From an uncultured Bacteroidia bacterium (GTDB lineage Bacteria; Bacteroidota; Bacteroidia; Bacteroidales; UBA932), in contig CACYWN010000013.1 in NCBI GenBank assembly GCA_902778105.1, forward strand, positions 1 to 53,369: a stretch of DNA of 53,369 bases, written 5' to 3'. Position numbers and translations under genes: made by a program. How positions within the stretch are numbered: the stretch's first letter is position 1; the number at the start of each line of letters is the position of its first letter. The notes beneath the pieces are model-generated. The model was not told the DNA's origin. It did no database searches and was given only the letters and a program-made list of their open reading frames with translations. Shown piece by piece: positions 299 through 34,417 of the stretch.

Positions 299-2449
299 TT
301 ACTTGCGGAACAGCATCGGAGCCATTTCATGCAGGCAGCGGCGCCAGGTGAGGAATTCGTGGGCCGTGCCCTCGGAGACGTAACCCTTGGCGTTGAAGCC
401 GGCGGCCTGGAGCTGGGCGGCCGCCTCGCGGATCCGGTCCGGACCTTCCTTGCTGCCGCAGCCGATGAAGATGCCCTTCACCTGCTTCGGGTCCTTGATC
501 TCATCCGGGGTATAGATACCGCCGCTCAGGAGGCCGTACCAGCCGAACATCTCCGGACGGTCGAGCGTGATGGCGTGGGTTTCCATGCCGCCCATCGACA
601 GACCGGCCATCGCACGGCTGTCTTTCTTCGCTATCGTACGGAAGTTCGCATCGACATAGGGGACGAGCTCGTCGCAGAGGACTGTCTCAAACTGCTTGTA
701 ATCAAAGCTGAACCGGCCACCGGGACGTACGTCGTTGGTCATGCCGTAGGTCATCACGATGATGAAAGGCTCGACCTTGCCCTCGGCGATGAGGTTGTCC
801 ATGATCAGGTTCGCATGACCCTGGTTCCACCAGGCATATTCGTTCTCGCCCCAACCATGCTGCAGGTACAGGACAGGATACTTCTTCTTGTTCTTGTCAT
901 ACTGCGGCGGGGTGTACACCCACGCTACGCGGTTCTGCTGCGTGCTTCCGGACCAGAAGAGGACCTGCTGCACCTTGCCGTGCGGCACACGCTTCATCGC
1001 ATAGAAGTCGGCGTCGTGGGCCGGAATCTCGATACCGCTCTCCCAACGGGTGGAGCCATAGTAGTTGTGAGTGCCCGGATCGTTGAGGACACCGCCGTCC
1101 ACGGTCAGGTGATAGTAGTGGAATCCTTCGTCCATCGGCCCGTCGGTTGTGCCCATCCAGGTGCCGTCTTCGGCCTTGTGCAGGACGGTGCCACCCGTGC
1201 CGCCGAGTCCGAGGCTGACGATGACGGACGTGGCCTTGGGGGCATTGACCTTGAAGCGGGCATAGCCCTGGGAGTTCACCATCGGATAGTCCTGGCCGGG
1301 CTGGTTGAGCTCCGACGGCCGGAAGTCTTCTTTCACGACGGCGTTGTCCTTGGCCGGATCGAAGCCCTTGACCTGCAGATAGGCCCTCTTGGGCTTGTAA
1401 TTCTCGTCGAACAGCAGGGGATAGTTGTCCACGCCCAGCCAGGAGTCCTTGTCGGAGACGTTCCAGAAGGTGACGCAGTCAATCACGTCCTTGTGCTTGC
1501 GGAGCACACGGAACAGGCGGGAATACATGTCCTCCTGCAGGGTCTTCTCCCAATCGGCGATCTGAGAGGCTCCCTGGCTGAAACGCAGGGCTCCGCCCAT
1601 CTCGGTATTCACACGGACGTCCAGCTCAGTGATATGGATATGGTTCACGACCTGGGAATAGAGGGTGAGGGCATTGTCGATGTCTTCCTGGGAAGGGCCG
1701 TAGATGTTGTAGTGGCCCTGCATGCCGATGCCGTCGACGGGCACACCGGCATCCTTCATCCGCTTCACGAGATTGAAGATGCGCTGGCTCTTGGCAGGCT
1801 CGGCGTCATTGTAGTCGTTATAGAAAAGAAGGGCATTGGGATCGGCCTCATGGGCATACTCGAAGGCCTTGTAGATGAACTCTTCGCCTGCGATCTTGTA
1901 CATCGGTGAATCGCGGAGCTCGGGGCGGCCGGGCCAGACGGGGCTGTCTGCAACGGCCTCATTCACCACGTCCCAGCAATAGACGACGTCCTTGTAGCGG
2001 TTTACGATGGCCTGGATGTGGTGCTTCATATTGGCATAGAACTCCTCCTTCGGCAGCAGGTTGCCCTGGACGTCCTGATACATCCAGGAGCCGATCTGGC
2101 TGTGCCACATCAGGGTATGGCCGCGCATCTTGATGCCGTGTTCGCGGCAGAAGTTCGCGATGCGGTCGGCATCCTCCCAGTTGAACTCGCCCTTCCGGGG
2201 CTCGGTGGGTTCGGGTTTCATCGCGTTTTCGGCGGTGATGCTGTTGAACTCGCGGAGGATGACCTTGATCTGTTCAGGCTCCACGACGTTCCGGTTGTTC
2301 ACGGCGACGCCGATCTTGAAGTAGTCCTTGTAAGCGTCCTTCAGACCGTCGGTGGGTTCGGGAATAGGGCGGGGACCCCACTGGGCCCCGGCGGTAACCA
2401 CGCCCAGGATGAGGGCGCAGATTCCGGCAGTGATCATTCTTTTTATCAT
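299..2449 (-). CDS. Secreted GH10 endo-xylanase fused to CE1 (feruloyl) esterase
   Basis: A 716-residue bifunctional hemicellulase. Residues 1-23 are a signal peptide. Residues about 35-365 are a GH10 barrel with acid/base Glu164 (VVNEA) and nucleophile Glu275 (HITELDV). A small beta-sandwich (about 385-475) leads into a CE1 esterase (about 490-716) with nucleophile Ser618 in GLSMGG and a likely catalytic His697 (GTAHEF). Known xylanase-feruloyl esterase fusions in Prevotella have the same order, so it should cut the xylan backbone and remove hydroxycinnamate esters. The frame is open 50 codons further upstream, but MIKRM at 2449 is chosen because the signal peptide starts there. It is the last gene of the operon, separated from its neighbour by 146 bp with a terminator, and may be expressed separately. 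Confidence 0.93.
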
Positions 2450-2482
2450 CGGCTGGATGGATAGATTGTGGTTTTCTTTCGA

Positions 2483-33500: not shown

Positions 33501-34417
33501 TTGCCTACCGATTTGATGCCGCTTCAGGTGAACTGGTGTCAGCGGTCGTGGACGGAAAGGAAATGCTCTCCGCACCGCTCCGGCTCAATGTCTGGCGGGC
33601 GCCGCTCGCGAACGAATTGGACGGTTGGAACAGCGGAAGCGGCGGAAGGATTGACGCAAACGGATACGGAACGCTCGGTTCCGGGATGGTGCTGGCCTCC
33701 CATTACTATGTGGCGGGTCTGGACCGGATGTCTGCGCTGCCCATCCGGGTGGATGCCCGGGAAGTGGGGGACGAGGTGGTCGTCAATGTCCGCGACCTGG
33801 CTTTGCTGGGCAGTGAGAACGTCCAGTTGGACGCCTATATCAGTGGTAATACGTATAACGGGTTTGACGAAACGTGGACCTGGCGTGTTGCCGGCGACGG
33901 TACGCTGACTGTGTGTCACAAAGTGTGCCCGCAGGGGAACATGCCAGCCTGGCTCCCGCGCCTGGGCGTCACCCTCATGCTGGACAAGTCCCTGGACCGG
34001 GTTGAATGGCATGGAAGGGGGCCGCAGGCTTCCTATCCGGACCGCAGAAGCGGTTACCGGCTGGGAGTCTGGCAGTCGGACATCGATGCGATGTACGAGC
34101 CCTACCTGATTCCCCAGGATTACGGCCTGAGGATGGACAGCCGCTGGGTCCGGATGACGGACGCGGCCGGCACCGGCCTGGAATTCTCCATGGACCAGCC
34201 GTTCGCCTTCAACGCGTATGACTGCACTACGGACAACCTCACCAAGGCCCTGTACCAGTTTGACCTGCAGCGGGGAGGTGACATCACCTTGAACCTGGAC
34301 TACACCACCTCCGGCGTCGGGGATACTGCCCGGGGAATCCTGGGTGCTTACAGGGCTTACCCGACCGTTTATGAACGGACCCTCCGGATCCGGCCGCTCC
34401 ACCGTGGAGCGGAATGA
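30560..34417 (+). CDS. Very large secreted GH2 with inserted LamG-like domain
   Basis: A 1285-residue GH2 enzyme. Signal peptide (1-20), sugar-binding domain with an extra loop (about 35-250), Ig-like domain, barrel with acid/base Glu501 (SAGNESGEG) and nucleophile Glu567 (FMDEY). At about residues 620-795 a concanavalin A/LamG-like domain (WHNVTATYDGASMKLYIDG) interrupts the barrel region before GSIWPDRTPQPEMWQ; a C-terminal small-chain beta-galactosidase domain follows. The ATG at 30560 overlaps the upstream stop (TGATG), so translation is coupled; a GTG one codon earlier is also possible. A beta-galactosidase or related exo-activity is likely; the insert may bind the polymer. Confidence 0.88.
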   Translation: MTVKTAFSCCLLALALPAGAQSYLDRLPDYIENTSVFEENQEPGRAFHLPEQSLSLNGTWKFGYYECPSEVPADFFKPAFNDRKWRTIEVPSNWEMQGYGQAVFRNVTAPFPLLPPKAMRERFLAALETPDLPANAREYFLSRLGGSVTPPPFAVSVPEVPEFNPTGAYRTVFTLPRDWKDQQVFLRFEKVASASFVWVNGQEVGYNEGAQEPAEYNVTKYLKPGKNTLAVLVLKYCDGYYLEGQDYWRLAGIFDDVTLYASPQARIWDWQVITDFGPDFVDSDLSVAVDLRGFDVQGNGYKVEATVSKEGKKVAEMAGGPVSIGPDSFQTVKLAAKVTAPEKWTAETPALYRLDLVLTDASGKVVDKVGKRIGFKKTEIRDGVFYLNGQPIKVSAECSHMQHPTLGHAMTEEVVRRDMEILKQFNFNAVRTSHYPPVNEYLDLADEYGLYVIDETGDESHASEYVSDWPEFTEMYRERVRRMVLRDRNHACVLFWSAGNESGEGNNITEVVKEGKRLDPTRFWMYGGNAAKHPAEDIVGPRYPIPLEHEIGYGLDREDLRPSFMDEYLSVAGNGGGAMDDFWEVIYAHPKLLGGAIWDFVSPGLEEPVRALKDRSPNAVPAHIMGKATLVNGPTGKAIDLDKQDQWVQVYRADAVEIAGDRLTLTLDVLPRKYNVSGGYLLTKGENQYGLRQYRDERLDFYLDTGKKQVLSAALPADWEGKWHNVTATYDGASMKLYIDGSEVASQPMQGRIRNLPLAVCIGRNEETCGQETGVYTCDAVIDNVGIFAEALQPGSFDPSRASLWLDFEEESVEGTFWTYGLGARTYGSIWPDRTPQPEMWQMKKSTQPLSFRLLDPEQGTVEVWNRSRFLNASHYATSWTLTADADVVASGGMPLDVAPMDRAVVRIPMPHPEAVPGKEYRLTVSSVLAADEVWAPKGHEVSWDQFELSSWNVPAKPVPASGKARLGRDGSGFTVTGEGFAYRFDAASGELVSAVVDGKEMLSAPLRLNVWRAPLANELDGWNSGSGGRIDANGYGTLGSGMVLASHYYVAGLDRMSALPIRVDAREVGDEVVVNVRDLALLGSENVQLDAYISGNTYNGFDETWTWRVAGDGTLTVCHKVCPQGNMPAWLPRLGVTLMLDKSLDRVEWHGRGPQASYPDRRSGYRLGVWQSDIDAMYEPYLIPQDYGLRMDSRWVRMTDAAGTGLEFSMDQPFAFNAYDCTTDNLTKALYQFDLQRGGDITLNLDYTTSGVGDTARGILGAYRAYPTVYERTLRIRPLHRGAE

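Follow-up and report, generated by a model that had tools for sequence, protein, structure and literature searches.

Within a stretch of 53,369 bases (∼60% G+C; the window) from an uncultured Bacteroidales bacterium (GenBank assembly GCA_902778105.1, contig CACYWN010000013.1, here C13), a divergent pair of gene runs makes up a polysaccharide utilization locus (PUL) at positions 299–34417. We see about an even chance that the core of this locus, i.e. its SusC/SusD pair, GH136-related beta-helix proteins, GH50-related proteins and a protein combining DUF5107 with TPR repeats, targets a beta-galactose-containing, ferulate-carrying plant wall glycan, e.g. pectic beta-1,4-galactan or arabinogalactan side chains. 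Gene content, gene order, conserved catalytic residues and the neighbours of homologous genes in relatives are the observations on which this reading is built.

The locus contains adjacent susC and susD genes, a local regulator of the hybrid two-component system (HTCS) type and nine enzymes, as expected of a Sus-type PUL, plus the DUF5107-TPR protein. From the centre outward, the minus-strand run holds genes for DUF5107-TPR, SusC, SusD, the beta-helix proteins BHb and BHa, the GH50 relatives GH50b and GH50a, a LacZ-type GH2a and a GH10-CE1 fusion; the plus-strand run holds HTCS, GH2b, GH94 and GH2c (Table 1). All elements named in an earlier sequence-only reading of the window (Sus system, GH10-CE1, two beta-helix proteins, two agarase-like proteins, three GH2 enzymes and GH94) are indeed present; the DUF5107-TPR protein at 18678–22094 was absent from its list. 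That reading had also recognised no GH43, GH51, GH3, GH67 or GH115, and none gave a Pfam match at E 0.001 in 10 + 4 window translations. It had called the partner enzymes mostly unassigned because the sequence was read without databases; they turned out to be assignable as GH50 relatives, GH136 relatives and a cellobiose-phosphorylase-like GH94. Family calls were made from Pfam and NCBIfam; visual inspection and a pattern served to recognise signal peptides and lipoboxes.

The two agarase-like proteins, GH50a and GH50b, had no Pfam match at E 0.001; they matched GH50 agarase structures at 5.3e-57 and 2.4e-52 in sequence comparison, and the profile matches (Table 1) extend over the catalytic barrel. 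The six active-site residues given for GH50 in the accessible text of PMC11079163 (Glu534, Glu695, Asn533, Phe742, Arg752 and Glu757 of Aga50D) are all kept in the HMMER alignment; they are invariant in 18/18 aligned GH50a sequences and in 14/14 of GH50b. Nearly all characterised GH50 enzymes are described there as agarases, but the family also includes beta-1,3-glucanases and one beta-galactosidase, from Victivallis vadensis (PMC11079163). As GH50 already includes a beta-galactosidase, a galactan activity of the window's GH50 relatives would be within reach.

The Pfam Beta_helix matches of BHa and BHb are weak (3.4e-7 and 3.1e-6); a clear similarity to LnbX-type beta-helix enzymes was found with GH136 lacto-N-biosidase structures (Table 1). 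An aspartate pair aligns with NGDGQAWDAD of 7v6i and 7v6m, and we take Asp411/Asp418, the catalytic pair of LnbX, to be the equivalent of these aspartates. In an alignment of 33 longer relatives and the two window copies, D309 and D316 of BHb are aligned in 35/35 rows (31 distinct sequences), so that the pair itself is not lost in distant relatives. The strict motif.GDG.[AS].D.D, on the other hand, matched 14 of 34 rows and did not match 20 (one of them a 153-aa fragment). In distant relatives, then, the sequence surrounding the conserved pair has changed, which may mean a different substrate for them. The scores against the NCBIfam LnbX model (111 and 109 bits) lie far under its cut-off of 2500; therefore we call BHa and BHb GH136-related rather than lacto-N-biosidases.

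A galactose link emerges from the gene neighbourhoods of relatives. Their genes were called mechanically (longest or best-supported frames), so that some frames marked ‘?’ are antisense artefacts; Pfam was applied to chosen neighbours, and the others were named by BLAST homology or first residues. Contig ends, and the choice of queries with which loci were retrieved, bias the tallies of neighbours. In G637, a genome of the same genus, we observed GH50b, GH53 (213 bits), an HTCS-like gene, DUF5107 (77% identical to that of the window), another GH50b and SusC, then a putative SusD-like gene with a pectic acid lyase beyond. In G442, of the same family, a run of GH2, DUF5107 (75%), SusC, SusD, BHb, BHa, a GH43-GH50b fusion and GH2a (68%) is followed by a galactokinase (271 bits, cut-off 227). 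The order GH43-HTCS-DUF5107 (74%)-GH50b-SusC was found in G684 (L205). GH50a has GH42 as a neighbour in L061 (tested) and, judged by homology, in L063; a GH110-type domain lies near DUF5107-GH50a in L065, and rhamnogalacturonase-type proteins accompany GH50b in L060, L203 and L204.

The Pfam-tested fusion of G442 (L172:15063-17990) has 975 aa; look-alikes by start sequence, of 941 aa in G637 (L195:8606-11431) and 938 aa in G680 (L196:9215-12031), lack neighbours from the remainder of the set. A free-standing GH43, 52% identical to the fused domain, adjoins GH50b in another family (L057:8229-9365).

Other loci of the same genome (2.66 Mb assembled, 84% complete) point in the same direction. GH53 matches are on contigs C27 and C24, none on C13. 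On C27 (L129, L150), two CE1-type esterases come after a BHb paralogue (87% identical), and then a GH2 for which NCBIfam ranks the GalB and GalA beta-galactosidases highest, below their cut-offs; further on are a second GH2 and HTCS, and on the opposite strand SusE-like, SusD and SusC genes and a tandem GH53 (539 bits; two matched stretches in one 656-aa protein). The cluster spans ∼23 kb in separate runs; as far as SusD, it is also present in G693 (L171) by homology. GH43 gave 22 match rows in the genome, 20 of them over cut-off and some being pieces of one frame, with none on C13; hence GH43 is missing from the locus only, not from the genome. On contig C35, GH43 enzymes are accompanied by a CE1-type esterase, a SASA-plus-Esterase protein (CE6-CE1 type) and, by BLAST, SusC-, SusD- and HTCS-like genes, a content that resembles the esterase-enriched arabinoxylan PUL of Bacteroides intestinalis (GH3 was not sought at C35). 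It seems, then, that a single gut bacterium has one locus for feruloylated arabinoxylan, another for galactan and a third, that of the window, for the mixed set. On C9 (L047:13234-16281) a second GH50b gene (55%) lies beside GH16, SusD and a SusC that is broken up over two frames; either decay of the locus or a mistake in assembly might explain the split.

The sequence-only reading had proposed looking for the same gene set in related genomes. A near-identical run does exist in G393, a metagenome-assembled genome (MAG) from goat reticulum. With GH50a as query, 84,980 species genomes yielded 15 loci; their sources include goat reticulum and water deer abomasum, further Bacteroidales MAGs, MAGs of Tannerellaceae (isolate names hinting at termite guts), Parabacteroides and Phocaeicola abscessus. 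Parabacteroides sp. Marseille-P3160 carries its GH50a with no core gene next to it, and no cultured carrier of the complete set was encountered. In G393 the minus-strand run is complete and is accompanied by HTCS, GH2b and a GH94 truncated by the contig end; GH2c was not seen there. Apart from SusC and SusD, the shared genes are 94–99% identical to those of the window (GH10-CE1 99%). SusC and SusD (L120:11120-15955 versus 13813-18630 of the window) reach 79%, as though two otherwise almost identical loci had exchanged or diversified their transporters. SusC-SusD-BHb-GH50a-DUF5107 without GH10-CE1 is found in two Tannerellaceae loci (L036, L038); L041 has SusC, SusD, BHb and GH50a, L044 has BHb-GH50a, and L037 and L040 have GH50a-DUF5107. 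G394 carries HTCS, DUF5107, SusC, SusD, BHb and part of BHa on L121, with GH50a on a separate contig (L033); neither GH2a nor GH10-CE1 was called after GH50a, nor GH2b or GH94 beyond HTCS.

Of the 299 genomes of the bacterium's own family (its own genome among them), five have BHb (E up to 1e-60) and 12 have GH50b. Among 393 genomes of the order, GH50b-type genes occur in 33, beta-helix genes in 23 and both in 11 (Fisher p 1.8e-7); with the own genome excluded, both occur in 10 of 392 (p 1.0e-6). These values are uncorrected for genome size or CAZyme-rich lineages (CAZyme, carbohydrate-active enzyme), and the beta-helix matches include distant relatives. In 4 of the 10 genomes (G096, G119, G131, G197) the two genes lie ≤20 kb apart on one contig. 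A tally of 57 rows, several repeating one locus, placed DUF5107 and GH50 in one same-strand run in L036, L037, L038, L040, L060, L065, L201, L203, L205 and G442, and a beta-helix gene and GH50 in one such run in L032, L036, L038, L044, L130, L131, L132 and G442.

For the DUF5107 domain a galactose-mutarotase-like fold is predicted; this analysis assigned it to no enzyme family. A His triplet and a Glu are invariant in 13 DUF5107 sequences; the catalytic residues of GalM are a His and a Glu. In the open-licence literature, DUF5107 came up together with glycoside hydrolases in a paper on marine stramenopiles.

Table 1. Genes of the locus, with coordinates in the window and basis of each call
Feature	Coordinates	Strand	Basis
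GH10 xylanase-CE1 feruloyl esterase fusion	299..2599	-	Pfam GH10 1.7e-99, Esterase 9.1e-19
GH2a, LacZ-type beta-galactosidase-like	2596..5661	-	Pfam GH2 domains; NCBIfam Bga2A 991 bits, cut-off 999
GH50a, GH50 relative, possible lipoprotein	5700..7862	-	Profile match to agarase 4bq2 2.3e-112; GISC lipobox-like
GH50b, GH50 relative	7850..9751	-	Profile match to agarase 6xj9 1.3e-98; lipobox AAGC
BHa, beta-helix, GH136 lacto-N-biosidase-related	9758..11737	-	4.5e-32 to 7v6i; NGDGFAYDFD motif
BHb, beta-helix, GH136 lacto-N-biosidase-related	11846..13801	-	6.4e-30 to 7v6m; D309 and D316
SusD-like binding lipoprotein	13813..15528	-	Pfam SusD_RagB 1e-29
SusC-like TonB-dependent transporter	15535..18630	-	Pfam plug and barrel
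DUF5107 and TPR repeats, 1138 aa, apparent signal peptide	18678..22094	-	
HTCS, hybrid two-component regulator	22309..26292	+	Propeller, HisKA, HATPase, receiver and AraC HTH domains
GH2b, beta-glucuronidase type, 597 aa	26308..28101	+	PRK10150 260 bits; NRK near C terminus
GH94, cellobiose-phosphorylase-like	28170..30560	+	Pfam GH94 1.5e-150; 1159 bits to 8ho7
GH2c, LacZ-type GH2 with laminin-G-like insert	30557..34417	+	Pfam GH2 domains; Laminin_G_3 at residues 645-795

GH10-CE1, on the same strand as GH2a and overlapping its end, matched xylanase 5ay7 (684 bits) and ferulic acid esterase 6rzo (424 bits); judged from its start codons, its true start is likely near residue 51, where a signal peptide begins. 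GH10-CE1 was searched for in 14 genomes: partial matches were found in nine, and among the matches listed full two-domain length was reached in G393 only. The window and G393 are the only loci examined in which it adjoins the core. The motif N-x-K is the carboxylate motif of beta-glucuronidases. The sequence-only reading had ascribed it to one GH2; in GH2b, NRK at residue 572 is the candidate for this motif, and NAK at 69 and NGK at 310 fit the pattern as well. The best NCBIfam match of GH2b, PRK10150, is a beta-glucuronidase (GUS) model, while the curated GUS cut-off of 544 was not reached. GH94, which had no NCBIfam match, is closest to cellobiose phosphorylase, versus 391 bits to chitobiose, 64 to cellodextrin and 53 to laminaribiose phosphorylases; it has no visible signal peptide and is probably cytoplasmic. 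In GH2c the laminin-G-like domain is inserted after the barrel. Past 34417 the genes include dihydrolipoamide dehydrogenase, TrkA, a PmbA/TldD pair and a POT transporter.

From these predictions a division of labour can be outlined in which the substrate, the cellular locations and every catalytic activity are inferred. The lipobox of GH50b is clear and that of GH50a possible; plain signal peptides are apparent on the beta-helix, GH2, GH10-CE1 and DUF5107 proteins. GH50b at the cell surface, together with GH50a, would cut beta-galactosidic bonds, and SusC/SusD would import the resulting pieces. The secreted beta-helix and GH2 enzymes might trim disaccharides, galactose and glucuronate in the periplasm. 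The CE1 domain of the fusion could remove ferulate, with GH10 cutting attached or cross-linked xylan, and GH94 would phosphorolyse cellobiose in the cytoplasm. It is unlikely, in our estimate, that the combination of SusC/SusD, GH136-related, GH50-related and DUF5107 proteins is an undescribed route for land-plant galactan, with new GH50 and GH136 specificities, DUF5107 as an unrecognised carbohydrate-active enzyme and GH10-CE1 serving ferulate-bridged junctions of xylan and galactan.

Several observations weigh against a galactan target. Xylan and cello-oligosaccharides are what GH10-CE1 and GH94 suggest; it is relatives and paralogues, not the locus, that supply the galactan links, and neither GH53 nor galactokinase has a match in the window itself. 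GH136 enzymes are known as milk-sugar enzymes, and none acting on plant galactan was found in the open-licence literature. For 8 of the 15 loci (L033, which starts at a contig end, L034, L035, L039, L042, L043, L045, L046) gene calling showed GH50a with no further member of the set nearby. DUF5107 is common (30 of 198 genomes of the order) and not specific to the set. In 10 of 19 DUF5107-TPR loci fetched at random from other Bacteroidales of the order (L245, L246, L248, L249, L251–L254, L256, L257) a symporter-like gene of 434–474 aa, named from first residues only, stands beside it; such a neighbour suggests that DUF5107 may take part in monosaccharide handling. Other partners occur too: SusCD-GH5-GH50b in L197–L200 and L206 (GH5 tested in L198 and L200), GH16 beside GH50b in L047 and L050 with a weak GH16 in L051, porphyranase domains in L133, GH123 in L062 and a sulfatase-like gene (first residues only) in L051. 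GH9-type proteins in L060 and L034 and, close to a beta-helix gene of L174, GH130 and a BD-FAE esterase point elsewhere than galactose as well.

In the recurring SusC-SusD-GH5-GH50b run, SusC is preceded by two small genes in L198, L199 and L206, possibly a sigma and an anti-sigma factor.

The presence of GH10-CE1 and GH94 keeps alive, as a somewhat unlikely alternative, the hemicellulose target of the sequence-only reading: a feruloylated arabinoxylan with galactose-holding side chains, of which GH10-CE1 would cut the backbone and release ferulate while the GH50, beta-helix and GH2 enzymes trim galactose- and xylose-bearing side chains. GH10-CE1 stands at the operon end and is 99% conserved in G393, a BHb paralogue lies beside two CE1 esterases, and FAXG is among the feruloylated oligosaccharides that the available part of PMC7815789 reports as tested with such esterases. 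Yet the genome has the separate C35 locus with GH43, SASA-Esterase and CE1-type esterase, the full-length fusion and its position beside the core are restricted as described above, and the neighbours in relatives include GH53 and galactokinase. The galactose part of the earlier guess is supported; a hemicellulose as core target is not. GH10-CE1 adjoins the core in only two of the loci examined, and GH43 is elsewhere in the genome. The restricted position of GH10-CE1 would also be expected if the locus combined two functions, that of a galactan-type core and that of GH10-CE1, GH2b, GH94 and GH2c, which would have been added later for general wall digestion; G394, where core genes occur with no GH2a, GH10-CE1, GH2b or GH94 called, would fit as well. 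We think this double function quite unlikely: GH10-CE1 is on the GH2a strand and overlaps the GH2a end, and GH2a follows GH50b in G442, too.

Since lacto-N-biose is the product of GH136 enzymes and GH2 includes beta-galactosidases, one could speculate about a locus for host glycans (lacto-N-biose or mucin). The match of BHa and BHb to lacto-N-biosidases, GH123 near GH50a in L062, GH20-like genes (first residues only) in L062 and L051 and the sulfatase-like gene of L051 would fit; still, the operons contain GH10-CE1 and a GH94 of cellobiose phosphorylase type, the locus gave no Pfam match to GH20 or sialidase, and two of the nearest relatives come from goat and water deer foregut (by record titles), so that a host-glycan locus is very improbable. 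Degradation of agar or porphyran from dietary red algae, which the GH50 relationship and the porphyranase domains of the distant L133 would favour, has hardly any probability left given GH10-CE1, the foregut hosts of near relatives and the lack of a Pfam match to GH16 or porphyranase in the locus.

A target rich in beta-galactose would have consequences for annotation. In Bacteroidales, the window locus together with some relatives puts branches of GH50 and GH136, along with DUF5107, next to galactan enzymes, foregut MAGs of plant eaters included. This offers concrete candidate substrates for GH50 and GH136 branches for which none was found, and it cautions against annotating such genomes as agar- or milk-sugar-degrading. 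The set is a combination of known families plus one domain of unassigned role; we found no description of it in the open-licence literature.

With the GH136 lacto-N-biosidases (7v6i, 7v6m, 5gqc, 6kqs) the locus shares, by homology, the beta-helix and aspartates seven residues apart, but the LnbX scores are low and the window offers no human-milk-sugar context. GH10-CE1 matches the NCBIfam model NF041944 for bifunctional xylanase/feruloyl esterase near full length and in both domains, yet at 1167.9 bits stays 32 below the curated cut-off of 1200. The pectic galactan PUL BT4667-BT4673 of B. thetaiotaomicron has SusC/SusD, GH2 and HTCS, which we take to be common to it and the window locus. The GH53 found in relatives of the locus compares with BT4668 of that PUL (PMC5238430, as far as its accessible text goes), whereas the window locus has no GH53, the hallmark of such a PUL, and has GH50, GH136-related and DUF5107 proteins in addition. 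Compared with GH50 enzymes (Aga50D, AgWH50C and, from the accessible text of PMC11079163, Fsa16295Glu of subfamily GH50_3), the likeness covers the barrel and six active-site residues, while the window lacks an algal context and its proteins are known from sequence alone. GH136 and GH50 are both named among dockerin-bearing CAZymes in the part available of a paper on isopods (PMC7071664).

The esterase-enriched (EGE) feruloylated-arabinoxylan PUL of B. intestinalis, with three GH43, one GH3 and five putative esterases in the available portion of PMC7815789, shares SusC/SusD, HTCS, a CE1 esterase and predicted ferulate release with the window locus. The definition given there (GH43, GH3 and more than two esterases; PMC7815789) does not describe the window PUL, which has one esterase domain, no GH43 or GH3, and GH10-CE1, GH50, GH136-related, GH2, GH94 and DUF5107 proteins instead. 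The sequence-only reading was to be abandoned if its unassigned proteins all fell into CAZy families explained by a described arabinoxylan PUL; four enzymes do lie near known CAZy families by homology, but the set does not fit the EGE arabinoxylan PUL as presented in those excerpts (PMC7815789). Closer counterparts are found in the bacterium's own genome: the C35 locus (GH3 not sought there) for the EGE PUL, and the C27 cluster, which is nearer to BT4667-BT4673 than the window locus is.

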